Shown here piece after piece: positions 7,352 through 33,000 of a stretch of DNA of 34,268 nucleotides. The notes under the pieces were generated by a model. It saw only the letters and a list, made by a program, of their open reading frames with translations, ran no database searches and had not been told where the DNA came from. Source of the stretch: Acidobacteriaceae bacterium (GTDB lineage Bacteria; Acidobacteriota; Terriglobia; Terriglobales; Acidobacteriaceae); assembly GCA_003140235.1 (NCBI GenBank), contig PLJN01000098.1:1-34268 (forward strand), written 5' to 3'. Every line of letters starts with the position of its first letter. Within the stretch, counting starts at the first letter, position 1. The translations under genes were made by a program, and so were the position numbers.

Positions 7352-7466
7352 TGTGCTGTCATATGTTTTCACTTCCCAGCCCATCAGTATCCACGATCCA
7401 GACAAGTATCAGGGCACGAGTTTACTCGGGCCGTAAACGCGGCCTACCCTGATCGCGGCTTTAGCC
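7352..7466. repeat. Left arm of the long inverted repeat flanking the RAYT gene
   Basis: Core TATCAGGGCACGAGTTTACT (7408-7427), with conserved flanks from about 7375 to 7434. More divergent similarity to the right arm continues out to 7352 and in to 7466. The outer end lies about 25 bp upstream of the cstA start; the inner end overlaps the RAYT stop codon. Confidence 0.85.
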
Positions 7467-7940
7467 GCTGCCTTCGTTCTTCTTCTTCCGAAAGTACGCG
7501 GAACAGTAAGGATACTCTTCGGCTGTCGGTGCAAGTCCCGCCTTTACAGGATTCTCGTAAATATACGACCTGTGGCAAAGAAAGCTCTCGCGATCATAAA
7601 TCCTGACTTCAGAAAAACCTCGCTGCCAAATTTCACCTCTATATTGCAAATCCTTTTGTGCGCGAAGGGAGAAGTTGCCCTTGATAAGCTGCACCGCTTT
7701 TTCAATTGAAATGTTCTCGTCGACGGTGAGCAAGAGATGGATATGGTTCCGCATCACGACAAAATCATGAACACGAAAGCGTCCGGCTGCTACATAGGAG
7801 CGCAGCACATCGATGAAGAGCGTTGCCATTCGCTCTGTTTGCAGCACAGCACGGCCTTGACTGGTTCGGGAACTGACGAAGAATGTGCGGGATTTGCCCG
7901 CAATCTTCGCGGCAGAAGAATTTCGTAAGGGATGCGCCAT
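7461..7940 (-). CDS. REP-associated tyrosine transposase (RAYT, Y1 transposase family)
   Basis: Single-strand DNA transposase-like protein of 159 residues from ATG at 7940. It has the HUH metal site NHIHLLL (His66, His68), the KGNFSLRAQ region and IWQRGFSEVRI. The catalytic-tyrosine segment is SYIYENPVKAG (Tyr126/Tyr128). The N-terminus is a little short compared with classical RAYTs, which begin with a strand before the first histidine block; FFVSSRTSQGR seems to supply this. RAYTs cut and join palindromic REP sequences at nearby genomic sites and usually exist as single, non-IS genes bracketed by REPs. Here the whole gene lies between two arms of a roughly 115-bp inverted repeat, and the stop codon overlaps the left arm. 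Confident at family level. Confidence 0.92.
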   Translation of the reverse strand: MAHPLRNSSAAKIAGKSRTFFVSSRTSQGRAVLQTERMATLFIDVLRSYVAAGRFRVHDFVVMRNHIHLLLTVDENISIEKAVQLIKGNFSLRAQKDLQYRGEIWQRGFSEVRIYDRESFLCHRSYIYENPVKAGLAPTAEEYPYCSAYFRKKKNEGSG

Positions 7941-7944
7941 TGCC

Positions 7945-8064
7945 CAGGGGCTAAAGCCCGATCATTGTAGGCTACTGTACGGCCCGAGTAAACTCGTGCC
8001 CTGATACTTGTATGGATCGTGGATACTGATTGGGCTGGGAAGCGAAAACATCTGAAACACACGC
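7945..8064. repeat. Right arm of the long inverted repeat flanking the RAYT gene
   Basis: AGTAAACTCGTGCCCTGATA (7987-8006) is the exact reverse complement of the left-arm core. The arm from 7978 to 8040 matches with only two or three differences, and looser similarity extends from GGCTAAAGCC near 7949 to the ACACAC near 8060. It begins 5 bp upstream of the RAYT start codon and ends 13 bp before the end of the DUF962 gene. Confidence 0.85.
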
Positions 8065-27453: not shown

Positions 27454-27645
27454 AGGGGATATTTATGGCTATTTCGAAATCTGGCAGATGGGCACAGCCG
27501 CAGTCAAAGATGTGAAAGCTAGTAGCTGTTGGTATCAAAAGCTCCTTGGGCAGCGACAACCTCATATGCTTCATGTCGCCATATTTATGATGCTCATAGC
27601 ATGGGATACAATTCCCACGCCACGTCGAAACCTGAGGATACCTCC
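27454..27645. other. Intergenic, nothing clear seen
   Basis: The frame of the amine oxidase extends to TTG 27529 through this stretch, but the codons look non-coding in composition. A proper ribosome site (TGAGGATACCTCC) occurs only before ATG 27646. No promoter or repeat is recognised. Confidence 0.3.
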
Positions 27646-29496
27646 ATGCTGCAGAGGATGATCGCTCACCTCACGGTGGGTTCACGCCTGGGTTCACGCC
27701 TACGACCGGCCGTTCTCAATCTGAAGTCGTTGGTTTTAACCAGGGTTTTCACCAAGGCATTCGCTCTTCTCACTATGGTATTGGCGCTTGCCATGGCGCC
27801 TATGTACTCACAACGGGCTGAGCCGGTTACCACGCCCCGGCCGCTGGGCGAAGCGTATTGCACGCCGCCCAGCGGGCAATACCCTGGCCATAAATACGAT
27901 GTAATCATCGTCGGGGCGGGGATTGCGGGACTCAGTGCGGCGAAGGAGTTGCAGCACTTGGGTCGCTCGGTCCTGGTCCTTGAGGCGAACAATCGGATAG
28001 GAGGCCGCGCGTACGTCGGCTATATCGGCAAGGACCAGGTCCCCATCGATTACGGAGGCGCGTGGATTCACGGCGTTCCCACCAACCCGCTCACCGCGCT
28101 GGTTGACTCCATGGGCTTCAAGCGGGAGCGCACCGAACTCAATCTTCCCTACTTTGTCAACGGCAAGGAAGCCAGCGAGGAAGAGAAGAAAGTCTTTGAC
28201 CATGCCGTGGAAGAATACGAAGATGCGGTGACGCTGGCTGCCAGGTCCGTTGAGGACCAGCACGCACTGGCTGAGTTCGCGTGTAACGAATACAAAAACC
28301 ACGTCCCTGTGAAAGAGATTTGCCGCGATCTGGAGCGCAGGATTCCGTTTAGCAGGATTTCTTCTCTCAGCGATCTTTGCCGCGGGCGCGTTCGCTCTCC
28401 CCTTCCCCTTCCCAAAGACTTCTGCACCCTCGCGGACAAGGATTTGCGCGTTACCAGCGACGTGGCGAAAGACTACGCGCCTCAAGCGAAGGAGTTCAAA
28501 GACATCATTCCTTTGCTGATCGCGAATGCTGGTCCGCTGGAAAGCGCCGCTGAACTGAACAAGACCTCCGCCGTTGACGTCGCACACTTCCTGGCCGGAG
28601 AGGATGACCTCGTCGACCAGGGCATGGGCGCTTTTGTCGAGAAACTTGGAGACGGCGTGCCGGTCTGCTTGAACTCCCCGGTCACGGAGGTCGATTACTC
28701 CGGGAATGGTGTGAAAGTGAGCGCCGGGGACAGAGTCTTCGAGAGTTCGAATGTACTGGTTACAGTCTCGGTTGGCGTGCTGAAGAAAAAAAAGATTGCG
28801 TTCCAACCGGAACTGCCGCAAGAGAAACTCGAGGCCATTGACCGTTTGCAGATGGGCAACATGCAGAAGGTGATCGTCCCTCTCAATCGGGATATTTTCC
28901 CGAAAGAGCCGATGAACTCATGGGTCCTCTATGAAGGGGACCTTCCCGCGGAGGCATTGGACTTCGCAAAAAAGCAAGGTCTTCCGCTTGTAGATGGAAC
29001 GCGGGTGGTCATGGGTTTCGTGATCAAGCCGCTGAACAAGAACATCGCTATCGGCTTCTTTGGCGGAGACTGGGCGAAGGCACTCGAGAAGCGGTGCGAC
29101 GGCATGGAGCACGGTTCTGGCAAAAGCAACCAATGCGACGATCTGTCGATTGCCATCACCAAGTCTGCTCTTGCCAATATTTCGGGTAAAAGAAAGATCG
29201 ACGAGGAAATTCAGCAAGAGGGAATCCAGGTAACACGCTGGAGCCTCGATGCAACCTCCTTCGGCGCCTATTCGGTGGCCGAACCCGGAAGCTGGCGCCA
29301 GCGGGAGGTCCTCGCGGAACCGGTGGCGGACGCAAAGGGAACCAAGCGGCTGTTTTTCGCCGGAGAAGGGACCGCCCGCACCATCTATAACGGTTCGTAT
29401 CCCGGCGCCTACGAGTCAGGCTTGAAGGCAGCTAGAGATATTCATGCCACCATGCTTGAGACTGAAGAGAAGGCGAGAAAGGGCCGAAAGCTATAA
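27646..29496 (+). CDS. Secreted or membrane-anchored flavin amine oxidase
   Basis: 616 residues from ATG at 27646. The N-terminus has a hydrophobic export segment, FALLTMVLALAMAPMYSQ (about residues 39-56). The FAD-binding fold begins at YDVIIVGAGIAGLSAAKEL (GxGxxG, about residue 84 on), followed by the family's VLEANNRIGGRAY. The end carries the second FAD contact FFAGEGTARTIYNGSYPGAYESGL. The fold and length match monoamine/polyamine oxidases, which oxidise amines to imines with release of hydrogen peroxide. The substrate is unknown. The middle has an unusual insertion (about 170-300) relative to compact bacterial enzymes, including a cysteine-bearing stretch. The last 30 codons are duplicated downstream. 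Confidence 0.88.
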   Translation: MLQRMIAHLTVGSRLGSRLRPAVLNLKSLVLTRVFTKAFALLTMVLALAMAPMYSQRAEPVTTPRPLGEAYCTPPSGQYPGHKYDVIIVGAGIAGLSAAKELQHLGRSVLVLEANNRIGGRAYVGYIGKDQVPIDYGGAWIHGVPTNPLTALVDSMGFKRERTELNLPYFVNGKEASEEEKKVFDHAVEEYEDAVTLAARSVEDQHALAEFACNEYKNHVPVKEICRDLERRIPFSRISSLSDLCRGRVRSPLPLPKDFCTLADKDLRVTSDVAKDYAPQAKEFKDIIPLLIANAGPLESAAELNKTSAVDVAHFLAGEDDLVDQGMGAFVEKLGDGVPVCLNSPVTEVDYSGNGVKVSAGDRVFESSNVLVTVSVGVLKKKKIAFQPELPQEKLEAIDRLQMGNMQKVIVPLNRDIFPKEPMNSWVLYEGDLPAEALDFAKKQGLPLVDGTRVVMGFVIKPLNKNIAIGFFGGDWAKALEKRCDGMEHGSGKSNQCDDLSIAITKSALANISGKRKIDEEIQQEGIQVTRWSLDATSFGAYSVAEPGSWRQREVLAEPVADAKGTKRLFFAGEGTARTIYNGSYPGAYESGLKAARDIHATMLETEEKARKGRKL

Positions 29497-29787
29497 AGTC
29501 TCTTGGAGGCTGTTTTGAATCATACGGAATAATCGCGCGGTTTCAACGGCTAAATTATCCATGTTTTCAATGGTTTGCATGATGGTGTCCTGGGCTGGTT
29601 TGAACCCCGGCTAGCCGCGAATTTGCGCGAATGGACACGAATCGGGGGGGAACTGGAAAATGCCTGACCTCTGTCCCCAGGTTTCCCGTTGGGATTTGTC
29701 ATTCCGAGCCGCCGGTTTCGCGGCGAGGAATCTGTTTTTGGTTTTGACTCTCTGCTACTTTCTTCTTCCTTTTCTTGTGTGGCGCCG
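29497..29787. other. Repeat-containing gap after the amine oxidase gene
   Basis: No gene is seen. Near 29613-29645 there is GCGAATTTGCGCGAATGGAC, a solo copy of another widespread palindromic-repeat type distantly like the rsmA/FecR repeat. CTGTCCCCAGGTTTCCC near 29671 resembles, inverted, the CCCGGGGACAGG at 26526. A copy of the CATTCCGAG repeat follows at 29698. Confidence 0.45.
29698..29735 (+). repeat. Solo copy of the CATTCCGAnCG...GAGGAATCTG repeat
   Basis: GTCATTCCGAGC, an inserted hairpin CCGCCGGTTTCGCGG, then CGAGGAATCTG. The outer ends match the terminal repeats of the GIY-YIG cassette (30585, 30945), but the central loop is longer. It is alone, with no paired copy within 200 bp. 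Confidence 0.75.
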
Positions 29788-29883
29788 GCGTCTACGAGTC
29801 AGGCATGAAGGCAGCTAGAGATATTCATGCCACTATGCTTGAGACTGAAGAGAAAGCGAGAAAGGGCCGAAAGTTTTAGAGTC
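29788..29883 (+). pseudogene. Duplicated 3' end of the amine oxidase gene
   Basis: About 96 bp are nearly identical to 29407-29502 (the last 30 codons, stop and following bases). The frame is still intact and would read VYESGMKAARDIHATMLETEEKARKGRKF then TAG. There are about six substitutions; two of them are synonymous, and Ala/Val, Leu/Met and Leu/Phe changes are mild. It begins abruptly inside unrelated sequence and has no start or upstream domain. It is either the tail of a lost paralog or a local segmental duplication. Confidence 0.85.
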
Positions 29884-29884
29884 T

Positions 29885-30295
29885 CTACCGCCCTCGCCCT
29901 GAAAAAAGGATTAGATTACCATCGGGATCACAAACGATGAATGTGCGCGCGCCCCATGGTTCTGTCTTGAGTACCTGATGAAATACCACGCCTGCCGTCT
30001 GAACCTCAAGGAAGAGCGGCTCTGCATCATCGAGTGTGATGGATGCGGAGAGCAGATGTTCTCTGTCCCGAAGCTCCGGATCGATTGCGGGCTCGGGTAG
30101 AGATCGCAGATTCAACCTGGCTCCATCCCGGAACACTTGCGAGTAAAACGGCGGCTCACCATAAATGAAGGCCACCGTAAACCCCAGTTTTTTTGTATAG
30201 AACTCACACGAGGTTGCAATGTCGGCGACAAAGAGCTGGGGTTCGGCGGCAAGAAGTGTCGGTTTGGACAGAGTTTCAGCGTGTATATCATTCAT
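29885..30295 (-). CDS. VOC (glyoxalase/bleomycin-resistance fold) family protein
   Basis: 136 residues from ATG at 30295, with AGGAG 7 bp ahead; the frame upstream to 30355 is not needed. The two beta-alpha-beta modules of the VOC fold are visible: PQLFVADIATSCEFYTKKLGFTVAFIYGEPPFYSQVFRDG, then SASITLDDAEPLFLEVQTAGVVFHQ, and TFIVCDPDGNLILFSGRG with the usual DPDGNLI end. Such proteins are metalloenzymes or ligand-binding resistance proteins; the usual metal glutamate near the end is not obvious here. No partner gene. Family firm, function open. It converges on the amine oxidase fragment. Confidence 0.85.
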   Translation of the reverse strand: MNDIHAETLSKPTLLAAEPQLFVADIATSCEFYTKKLGFTVAFIYGEPPFYSQVFRDGARLNLRSLPEPAIDPELRDREHLLSASITLDDAEPLFLEVQTAGVVFHQVLKTEPWGARTFIVCDPDGNLILFSGRGR

Positions 30296-30584
30296 AGTAT
30301 GGACTCCTTTAAGGAGGTGGGTCGCCCGTCTCCCCGTTCTTCTGATGATCACCAATCTCCTTCTTTGTCAGGTAACCGCCAAGGAAGGACACGTGACCGA
30401 ATTCTAGCCCATGCCGCGCCAGGTTTTCGCTTTGGCTGACTGCTGAGTGCCGCCTTTTTATCGAGCCTTCGAAAAATCAAAACGAAAATTCAAAATCGAA
30501 AGCCGGGCCACCGCCCTGATCCTCTGTTCGGTTTACAATGCCGCGCATGAGTATTATTTCGAGATAGTGAAGAATGTCTAAGTT
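30296..30584. other. Intergenic region with AT-rich repeat copy A
   Basis: The left part holds the VOC ribosome site. A short leftward open frame (27 codons from a GTG near 30388) ends beside it, but I do not trust it. The repeat copy occupies 30431-30514. Nothing else is recognised. Confidence 0.4.
30431..30514 (+). repeat. AT-rich dispersed repeat, copy A
   Basis: TTTGGCTGACTGCTGAGTGC, then ATCGAGCCTTCGAAAAATCA, then TTCAAAATCGAAAGCCGGGC and CACCGCC. This consensus recurs as copies B, C and D between 31.06 and 32.91 kb. The ends GGCTTCGA and TCGAAAGCC are partly inverted, giving a weak hairpin. Confidence 0.8.
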
Positions 30585-30618
30585 CTTGTCATTCCGAACG
30601 GAGTGAGGAATCTGCTTT
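30585..30618. repeat. Left terminal inverted repeat of the GIY-YIG cassette
   Basis: 34 bp, CTTGTCATTCCGAACGGAGT then GAGGAATCTGCTTT. It matches the right repeat at 30945-30978, in reverse complement, at 33 of 34 positions. Its last bases overlap the TTG start codon of the nuclease gene. Confidence 0.9.
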
Positions 30619-30945
30619 GCGCCGCGACTGGAAATTCCACGTCTATATCATGGCCAGCAAGTCACGCCGAATTTATGTCGGCATGACAAACTCGCTATTC
30701 AGCCGAGTGATGCAGCACAAAGAAGGCCAGATCGAAGGCTTCACCAAGAGATACAAGATCAACCGGCTGGTACATTTCGAACCGTTTCAATATGTGAACA
30801 ATTGCATCGCCAGGGAAAAGCAAGTGAAAAAGGATGGGCGCGAGACAAGAAAGTTGTTCTGATCGAGCGCTTCAATCCCACGTGGGAAGACCTTGCAGCG
30901 GACTGGGGTAAGCCGCTCGATCCACCCACACCGAAAGTGAAATGA
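30617..30945 (+). pseudogene. GIY-YIG nuclease family gene, frameshifted near its 3' end
   Basis: Small single-domain GIY-YIG nuclease of the YhbQ/UvrC-N type. The first 81 codons from TTG 30617 read in frame to TGA at 30862. They contain the GIY-YIG strands as HVYIMASK...RIYVGMTN, the catalytic arginine region LFSRVMQHK, GFTKRYKINRLVHFEPF, and the glutamate helix IAREKQVK. Family members continue WxRxKKxxLIExxNPxWxDL. That continuation exists here in the next frame (WARDKKVVLIERFNPTWEDLAADWGKP), ending at TGA 30943-30945. The two frames meet at the run AAAAA (about 30826-30830); one extra A would restore a protein of about 109 residues. Causes could be a recent frameshift mutation, a sequencing error or slippage. 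The active-site residues are before the break, so a truncated product may still fold. Confidence 0.8.
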
Positions 30946-30978
30946 AAGCAGATTCCTCACTACGTTCGGAATGACAAG
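30945..30978. repeat. Right terminal inverted repeat of the GIY-YIG cassette
   Basis: AAAGCAGATTCCTCACTACG then TTCGGAATGACAAG. It is the reverse complement of the left repeat with one mismatch. It starts on the last base of the restored nuclease stop codon. Confidence 0.9.
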
Positions 30979-31063: not shown

Positions 31064-31119
31064 GAGGCTTCGAAAAATCAAAACAAGAAATTCAAAATCG
31101 AAAGCCGGGCCACCCGCCC
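31064..31119 (+). repeat. AT-rich dispersed repeat, copy B
   Basis: GAGGCTTCGAAAAATCAAAA, then TTCAAAATCGAAAGCCGGGC and CACCCGCC. The TGACTGCTGAGTGC head seen in copies A and D is missing or unrecognisable. It ends 13 bp before the stop of the ChaN-like gene on the other strand. Confidence 0.8.
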
Positions 31120-31132
31120 ATTGCCGGCAATT

Positions 31133-32135: not shown

Positions 32136-32222
32136 TTCGGCTAACTGCCAAGAGCTGCTTTCTCGATGAGGCTTCGAAAAATCAAGAAAAGAATTCAAAA
32201 TCGAAAGCCTGTCCACCCGCCC
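32136..32222 (+). repeat. AT-rich dispersed repeat, copy C
   Basis: CGGCTAACTGCCAAGAGCTG, then GATGAGGCTTCGAAAAATCA and GAATTCAAAATCGAAAGCCT, ending GTCCACCCGCC. It is more diverged than copies A and D but in the same order and orientation. Confidence 0.75.
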
Positions 32223-32248
32223 ATCACATCCAGAGCGAAGAGGATCAA

Positions 32249-32482
32249 GAGCGCCGGAGGCGCGCTCACAGGGTAGCCCCCGGTGCAACCGGGGGTAAGC
32301 ATGGGTATGGGTTCGAAGCGCCGTAGGCGCGACACAGAAATTAAATCCACCAAAACACATATCGGGAACCCGCGTTTGGACGTAAATGCGGAACATTGTG
32401 TCGCGCCTCCGGCGCTCTAAAATCTTTACATGCTTACCCCCGGTTGCACCGGGGGCTACCCTCTAGGCGCGCCTCCGGCGCT
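32249..32482. repeat. BIME-like palindromic element of 234 bp
   Basis: The left arm (32249-32336) reads AGCGCCGGAGGCGCG, GGGTAGCCCCCGGTGCAACC, GGGGGTAAGCATG, then AGCGCCGTAGGCGCGACACA. The right arm (32397-32482) is its reverse complement over about 85 bp with a diverged patch of about 12 bp. The centre is a 60-bp AT-richer loop. Each arm itself holds three small hairpins (GCGCCGGAGGCGC twice, CCCCCGGTGCAACCGGGGG). There is no open reading frame. This is how REP doublets (BIMEs) or miniature elements look, and a RAYT gene is present at 7.5 kb, but its own repeats differ. Confidence 0.85.
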
Positions 32483-32761: not shown

Positions 32762-33000
32762 AATAGACTGCGGAGATTCTAGCCCCGCCTGTAGGTACCT
32801 CGTTTCTGGATTTGGCTGACTGTTAATTGCTGAGTGCTGAGTGCTGCTTTCCATCGAGGCTTCGAAAAATCAAAAAGAATTCAAAATCGAAAGCCGGGCC
32901 ACCCGCCGATTGATTTTTCGAACAACAAATTATCGAAGCGGGGTGCCCTGGGCTTTGATCTTGGTTTTGATTTTTCGAAAGCTTGGAGTACGAGGAGACG
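32762..33000. other. Intergenic, repeat copy D and an inverted partial copy
   Basis: Copy D at 32811-32907 runs direct. 32949-32985 (GGCTTTGATC...TTTTTCGAAAGC) is a partial copy in reverse orientation. Together they form an inverted pair about 40 bp apart. No gene. The ribosome site GAGGAG for the following gene is at 32992-32997. Confidence 0.6.
32811..32907 (+). repeat. AT-rich dispersed repeat, copy D
   Basis: TTTGGCTGACTGTTAATTGC, tandem TGAGTGCTGAGTGCTG, then ATCGAGGCTTCGAAAAATCA and TTCAAAATCGAAAGCCGGGC, CACCCGCC. Together with copy A it defines the full unit; both are preceded by ATTCTAGCCC about 25-35 bp upstream. Confidence 0.8.

Follow-up and report, generated by a model that had tools for sequence, protein, structure and literature searches.

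A GIY-YIG gene between inverted hairpins

The window, by which we mean the whole 34,268-nt stretch of acidobacterial DNA analysed here, holds between positions 30585 and 30978 a small nuclease gene bracketed by two copies of one hairpin repeat. The left arm (30585–30618, plus strand) and the right arm (30945–30978, minus strand), which is the left-arm hairpin inverted, are 34 nt each, 97% complementary (33/34) and 326 nt apart, and both point a TGTC tag outward; the repeat recurs at many places in the genome. These coordinates reproduce the inverted repeat that the sequence-only reading had reported around a GIY-YIG gene. The gene itself, a stand-alone GIY-YIG nuclease gene on the plus strand (30617–30945), is frame-broken. 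Its first frame (30617–30862) encodes 81 aa, of which residues 7–76 match the Pfam GIY-YIG domain (PF01541, E = 4.2e-11); because this frame stops prematurely at 30862 and the remainder, matched at 30826–30942, lies in another frame, the window copy is broken, and as a cassette it is decayed. An intact copy lies on contig C101 of the source genome. That TTG at 30617 and TGA at 30943–30945 overlap the inner edges of the arms, as the same reading had it, is correct, but the TTG is at most a putative start codon, the intact C101 frame being open through the left arm with a codon other than TTG at that place. Likewise, the snug fit of the gene between its arms holds in this lineage but not across phyla, where the median gap between the matched coding stretch and the nearest repeat is 33 nt on the left and 39 nt on the right (57 loci). 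The repeat core does recur in the window without a gene, in the form of a variant: a solo repeat at 29696–29734 (plus strand) has the tag and basal stem of the arms and a different, longer apical hairpin. A search of the whole window against Rfam gave nothing at gathering score, and an RNA family was rejected on this ground.

Copies in the source genome

The cassette occurs four times in the source genome, in the window and on contigs C36, C101 and C192, the other copies being 92–93% identical to that of the window. With the four placed in the same orientation, similarity runs through the whole cassette, both repeats included up to their outer edges, and the surroundings are largely unrelated to one another: C101 and C192 have no clear similarity outside the repeats, and the window and C36 have about 60 nt more in common, with a gap, on the left side only. 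The gene is broken in the window, C36 and C192 copies, and one arm of the C192 cassette keeps the tag and basal stem with a different apical hairpin. Beyond the cassettes, the query found at least 31 further distinct places with the repeat, some of them partial matches (40 of 61 candidates scored), and these are mostly single copies. Inspection by eye revealed no target-site duplication around the cassettes, with no base-exact unfilled site for comparison. For the window locus no unfilled site was obtained, the flanking genes not being syntenic in the genus, and for the C192 cassette a query made from its surroundings gave only short or weak matches in three of four relatives.

PF01541 matches lie at nine places in this genome, one of them UvrC-sized (contig C99) and eight stand-alone. 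Among the eight, tagged hairpins stand on both sides of the gene in the four cassettes and on C153, where the hairpins are of a different sequence type from the cassette arms. On C63 the inverted repeat around the gene is of a third type; its two outer ends both carry the tag, but the detector passed one side only. On C55 and C85 a tagged hairpin was found on neither side, C85 being only 59 nt from its contig end.

The arms as CGTC/TGTC REPs

Read from the outside, an arm opens with (C/T)GTCA; then come a stem that closes again beyond a variable tip and, last, a short tail. The tag in the window is TGTC, not GTAG, the stem starts with ATTCC and is short and mismatched, and the tail is CTG, not CCA; stems of 8–9 bp are found in other arms, for example those of Bradyrhizobium and CGTC-1. 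Across phyla, in the best 80 of at least 493 relatives, GTC is preceded by T in 107 and by C in 62 of 185 arms, and 91 of the 185 have the CCA tail. This layout is that of a described class. Di Nocera et al. 2013 (PMC3733652) define a REP superfamily with a CGTC tag (TGTC and CCTC allowed), an 8–9 bp stem starting with AT and a CCA tail in most but not all members; they list Bradyrhizobium, S. meliloti and A. lipoferum among the carriers and equate Neisseria dRS3 and Rickettsia RPE-4 and RPE-6 with CGTC families. According to the paper the repeats "apparently lack a dedicated transposase"; no RAYT was seen flanked by them, no partner enzyme was found, and the word GIY is absent from the text. 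The window repeat belongs to this superfamily and is not private to the cassette. Tag, stem start, a CCA tail in many of the cross-phylum arms and the carriers are shared, and dispersed copies and head-out pairs are found here as well; what differs, besides the partner enzyme that the paper lacks, is the window variant itself, which does not closely fit the paper's four families because of its TGTC tag, short mismatched stem and CTG tail.

The numbers of such repeats can be large. One exact 26-nt repeat pattern was present in 10 of 16 hand-picked GIY-positive genomes, with up to 83 (41 + 42) copies and none in the reversed control, and one genome (G247) has at least 15 tag-outward pairs of it at a single constant spacing. 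N. gonorrhoeae, too, has a GIY-YIG gene bracketed by repeats; these are CGTCATTCCCGC-type, of the Neisseria CGTC (dRS3) kind.

Association of gene and hairpin across phyla

An alignment of four source-genome proteins served as query against species genomes, and the best 80 of at least 493 relatives make up the cross-phylum set, with record titles from Acidobacteria, Proteobacteria, Chloroflexi, Chlorobi, Bacteroidetes, Planctomycetes, Omnitrophota, Clostridia, candidate phyla and others. Read in one frame, 9 of the 80 matched stretches contain a stop. The main detector accepted a hairpin that had the tag, an exact four-base stem and a C in its tail, and an earlier one required a six-base stem; one locus (L115) was left out for its short flank. 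With the main detector, tag-outward hairpins stand on both sides of 58 of 79 genes and of 1 of 395 control windows, a difference with a Fisher p of about 2e-55 if the windows are treated as independent. With the six-base stem the figures are 60/79 and 6/395, and 55/74 genes when the six loci that represent one orthologous Bradyrhizobium locus are collapsed. Plain ungapped inverted repeats flank 44 of the 80 genes and 2 of 400 control windows of equal geometry from the same loci. Hence the sequence-only reading was borne out in its expectation that related GIY-YIG genes would carry such flanks. The six-base-stem detector also found an excess of inward-facing tags on both sides (15/79 vs 9/395 in controls). 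This is as expected if arms are often double; a single-pair model does not predict it. A tagged hairpin on either side in any orientation was found by the same detector in 172 of 395 control windows, and thus a tag on one side is uninformative.

Closer to home the association is looser. Among 68 genes from relatives of the source genome, a set from which lower-scoring matches were mostly left out, the main detector found outward tags on both sides in 27 as against 5 of 340 controls (26/67 without a duplicate gene), and 41 of the 68 fail this test. The six-base-stem detector, which misses the mismatched stems common in these relatives, gave 18/68 vs 10/340; flanking inverted repeats were found at 45/68 and in 6/340 control windows. 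The sets overlap: within the 68, L203 is the gene of L165 and L148 is the source-genome C101 copy, and L068/L182 and L069/L157 are the same genes in both sets. Four distant GIY-YIG genes, tested apart, had inverted repeats in 0/4 cases. At the level of whole genomes there is no clean association among 61 relatives, a GIY-YIG gene being present in 17 of 20 with a match to the cassette DNA (source genome included) vs 22 of 41 with none. Three of the matching genomes (G009, G018, G021) yielded no GIY-YIG gene of this family, and in three (G004, G007, G026) the match falls in the gene, not the repeat.

Being abundant and lying between genes, REPs might simply accumulate around dispensable genes in loose intergenic DNA, as the 172 control windows with some tagged hairpin would allow. 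Such a coincidence is very hard to credit against 58/79 vs 1/395 for outward hairpins on both sides, and against their scarcity at two other kinds of gene that are presumably as dispensable: none of 33 Y1 (RAYT-type) genes and none of 24 DUF559 genes has them (main detector; own controls 0/165 and 0/120, respectively). The corresponding counts are 0/33 vs 4/165 for Y1 genes with the six-base stem, and 1/24 for DUF559 genes with a looser detector; one of 34 Y1 loci was left out for a short flank.

The Y1 genes also bear on the notion that the GIY-YIG gene is a passenger, sitting between two REPs that a RAYT or other transposase mobilises in trans. Y1 transposase genes (PF01797) are indeed common in the same genomes (52/61), but the inverted repeats that they carry are others (25/33 loci, scored in 400-nt flanks as against 250 nt for GIY-YIG genes and with no control windows), and the absence of any RAYT flanked by CGTC repeats in PMC3733652 agrees with the 0/33 found here. 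In the source genome the five Y1_Tnp loci (RAYT-type by Pfam), one of them in the window, have inverted repeats in 5/5 cases and tagged hairpins on both sides in 0/5, and none lies between the arms of a GIY-YIG cassette. Nor would a passenger be expected to be one family kept by the repeat class across phyla with nearly invariant catalytic residues. A passenger of RAYT was consequently rejected as the main reading, and the explanation as a whole seems improbable to us; a third enzyme may be the mobiliser of the repeats.

Filled sites, unfilled sites and deleted derivatives

In A. lipoferum 4B a 510-bp element between sufB and sufC consists of a repeat pair, the GIY-YIG gene and another repeat pair; this was the sole record of 115 in which one place covered at least 80% of the query. 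In A. ramasamyi, A. oryzae and Azospirillum sp. B510, 96–97% identical around the site, and in A. thermophilum (90%), the sufB-sufC gap has neither the gene nor CGTC repeats, and that of B510 holds another palindrome. Since both are absent from the relatives, gene and repeats came or went together in A. lipoferum. The gap has diverged between Azospirillum species, so that the unfilled site is not base-exact, and no target-site duplication was seen by eye at the element, again with no base-exact unfilled site for comparison. Shinella sp. PSBB067 has a GIY-YIG gene in the same gap with a different CGTC repeat. As an aside, this gap of the suf operon (L319, L327, L326) is occupied by a different nuclease cassette in each of three genera: in Azospirillum and in Shinella the gene is GIY-YIG, in Sphingomonas it is DUF559.

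Six Bradyrhizobium genomes carry the gene at one orthologous place. Each has 62–86 accepted query matches (40 of 398–549 candidates scored), and among the matches listed many are identical to an arm over about 31 nt. In a set of 60 Bradyrhizobium genomes, 13 match the whole query and a 14th matches it up to a contig end. Nineteen other Bradyrhizobium were compared at the same spot: in one (L291) most of the gene is deleted between two repeats, four (L292–L295) have a repeat, a spacer and a repeat, and the rest have other contents. In S. meliloti Ak57 a full cassette lies beside an internally deleted derivative that keeps both ends; in Sinorhizobium sp. K101 the same spot has degenerate repeats only. 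On Rhizobium plasmids, the flanks of two cassettes yielded no clean pair of filled and unfilled sites, and at one plasmid cassette (L317) the inverted repeat is absent altogether. Sites without the gene, which the sequence-only reading expected, are therefore seen both at sufB-sufC in Azospirillum and in Bradyrhizobium; its proposal that orthologous loci would give exact insertion borders succeeded as far as finding gene-free sites and not in providing a base-exact unfilled one.

It is on these sites that the main rival has to be weighed, that of a free-standing homing nuclease. Here the gene alone would be mobile, and the abundant REPs, spread in some other way, would serve it as cutting sites and as homology. 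GIY-YIG domains do drive homing in introns and phages, and the spot of the gene in Bradyrhizobium holds a REP-spacer-REP pair in other species. However, Bradyrhizobium species with and without the gene differ in the spacer and in the sequence outside the repeats too, the relatives of A. lipoferum lack gene and CGTC repeats alike (base-exact borders are missing there), and across phyla tag and hairpin go with the gene. Homing of the gene alone is thus considered unlikely.

Conservation of the hairpin and properties of the enzyme

In the cross-phylum set (best 80 of at least 493 relatives), 185 tagged arms were counted in 160 flanks as against 0.125 per shuffled flank. Stem positions 7, 8 and 9, which lie outside the six bases used by the detector, form Watson-Crick pairs in 99/185, 143/181 and 90/181 arms, the fractions in shuffles being 0.23, 0.26 and 0.22. 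Where the left and right arms of one gene differ in the stem, 62 differences are compensated and 30 one-sided; the count is biased toward compensation, since an arm had to be paired at positions 1–6 to be detected. Clear single cases are Bradyrhizobium and L140, where the two arms differ in stem bases and pairing is kept. The sequence-only reading had proposed that repeat and nuclease be compared for co-variation, and over 55 loci enzyme distance does correlate with stem distance (Mantel r = 0.27, p = 2e-4); with GC taken into account, the partial r is again 0.27. Co-variation of enzyme and stem is real but modest.

The proteins belong to the GIY-YIG superfamily by their Pfam match, by retention of the catalytic Tyr, Tyr, Arg and Glu and by predicted fold: each of Tyr, Tyr, Arg, His and Glu is present in 79 or all 80 of the proteins (best 80 of at least 493 relatives), and an AlphaFold2 model of a Bradyrhizobium relative (pLDDT 92) matches UPF0213 protein BH0048 (E = 5e-5), then Slx1 (E = 0.009, not under 0.001), with UvrC also matched. 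UPF0213 is the nearest solved structure by sequence too. Searches of the nuclease against NCBIfam gave nothing above cut-off and against PHROGs only weak families of unknown function. A defence protein was rejected as its identity, the best PADLOC match, at E = 0.03, giving that reading no support.

The predicted nearness in fold to UPF0213 and to the structure-specific nuclease Slx1 might suggest a domesticated enzyme, one that acts for the host in processing or regulating REP hairpins, with the flanking ones serving to regulate the enzyme itself, the repeats in general spreading via replication errors; the one conserved place in several Bradyrhizobium species fits this as well. On the other side, several decayed copies in one genome, patchy presence, a deleted derivative and occurrence in one Azospirillum species only look selfish, and we regard domestication as a rather remote prospect.

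A candidate partner for CGTC/TGTC REPs

We favour the explanation that the cassette represents a mobile palindrome system in its gene-bearing form, and that the nuclease is probably to CGTC/TGTC REPs what RAYT is to GTAG REPs, their dedicated partner. Comparative sequence evidence of several kinds argues for it: the pairing of gene and hairpin and its specificity, conservation of the hairpin and of catalytic residues, multi-copy spread, filled and unfilled sites, and the deleted derivative. The compact mobile cassette of the sequence-only reading, a stand-alone GIY-YIG protein linked to the palindrome at its ends in the manner of RAYT and REP, is accordingly supported by the flank association and the gene-free sites. 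Of the two described classes of short palindromes, the CGTC/TGTC class would have in this nuclease the best candidate yet for the partner that spreads it.

In the proposed working, a small GIY-YIG gene between two tag-outward (C/T)GTC hairpin copies would be the gene-bearing form, and the gene-free repeats scattered singly or in tag-outward pairs would be its non-autonomous relatives. The enzyme would recognise the tag and basal stem as a hairpin, in single-stranded DNA at a replication fork or in an extruded cruciform, and would nick at or near the tag; the segment bounded by the repeats would then be copied or moved to a new intergenic site. GIY-YIG enzymes hydrolyse DNA, where HUH transposases hold it covalently, and we know of no GIY-YIG enzyme that does the latter. 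For this reason joining is assigned, in the proposal, to host replication and repair.

The nearest parallel is the REP/RAYT system (TnpA-REP, REPtrons, REPINs), which likewise has a small nuclease gene between inverted short tagged hairpins that are also scattered singly and in pairs. The enzyme there is an HUH tyrosine transposase and the tag is GTAG, whereas here they are a GIY-YIG nuclease and (C/T)GTC, and Y1 genes with other repeats occur in the same genomes; since neither the HUH enzyme nor the GTAG tag is found, the cassette is filed as working like REP-RAYT and not as a member. With the GIY-YIG homing endonucleases of group I introns and free-standing phage genes it shares the nuclease fold, but no intron or intein was seen here, and the genes are bracketed by tagged hairpins and encode about 100 residues. 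Enzymes of the I-TevI type have a separate DNA-binding domain, and the cassette proteins of that length have none. UPF0213/YhbQ-type proteins and Slx1 are close in solved structure, by sequence (UPF0213) and by fold (UPF0213, then Slx1), yet Slx1 is a eukaryotic branched-DNA nuclease that works with Slx4, and neither has to our knowledge been described as flanked by REPs. DDE insertion sequences and MITEs also have terminal inverted repeats and internally deleted derivatives, but here there is no DDE gene between the arms, the arms are themselves hairpins and no target duplication was seen.

In open PubMed Central papers (no preprints, few subscription papers), none of the matches listed links GIY-YIG or DUF559 to REPs. 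By term count, a 2025 paper on RepRanger has no word beginning with GIY, nuclease, RAYT or transposase, and a 2018 survey of HUH enzymes has none beginning with GIY. In the matching passages of PMC9465073, a RayT gene and a GIY-YIG gene of Moraxella catarrhalis, both specific to one clade, are in the same table with no link drawn; in those of PMC10928387 the match to 'rayt' is an author's name only. A candidate enzyme of about 95 residues makes the question of a CGTC REP partner directly testable. If the nuclease does move the repeats, mobile DNA would have a mechanism based on a hydrolytic GIY-YIG nuclease, with no transposase. Such a mechanism, if true, would account for the many repeats of Rhizobiales, Neisseria, Acidobacteriota, Bacteroidota, Chloroflexota and other groups, and would give a role to a widespread family annotated only as 'GIY-YIG nuclease family protein'.

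Other nucleases and repeats

A second kind of nuclease gene was seen beside palindromes. In a DUF559 sample made up of the best 24 of 30 loci (L304, L305 and L309 of Bradyrhizobium, L326 of Sphingomonas and L328–L351 are named as DUF559 loci), inverted palindromes flank 16/24 genes vs 5/120 controls. The arms are nearly all C-rich stems of the CCCTCTCCC, CCTTCTCCC or CCTCCCCC kind, often with GGGTGAGGG or GATGAGGGG beside them, and DUF559 genes occupy intergenic spots that elsewhere hold GIY-YIG cassettes (L305 by Pfam; L304 and L309 by eye). This is possibly a second pairing of nuclease and palindrome, parallel to that of GIY-YIG. A broader reading, to which we give about even weight for and against, is that small nucleases of unrelated kinds have each been paired with repeats: RAYT with GTAG REPs, GIY-YIG with (C/T)GTC REPs (Neisseria and Bradyrhizobium included) and DUF559 with CCCTCTCCC-type palindromes. 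For the GIY-YIG and DUF559 pairings the nuclease would be hydrolytic; it would cut the hairpins and leave host replication and repair to copy them, so that dispersed repeats would arise free of any transposase.

The window has further repeats of its own. Its Y1 gene (7557–7853, minus strand) lies between 56-nt inverted repeats (7380–7435 and 7978–8033) that are unrelated to the GIY-YIG repeats. A gene-free inverted pair at 32250–32303 and 32429–32482 is closely like the arms of the Y1 gene on contig C175 (L038), and perhaps the stretch from 32250 to 32482 is a non-autonomous relative of that element. Another repeat (TTCAAAATCGAAAGCC...) has four copies within 2.5 kb around the cassette, at 30472–30519, 31074–31121, 32177–32224 and 32863–32910. 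Finally, a 102-nt direct repeat (29402–29503 and 29785–29886, 93% identical) has one copy near the end of a long ORF (27529–29496) and the other about 380 nt further on.
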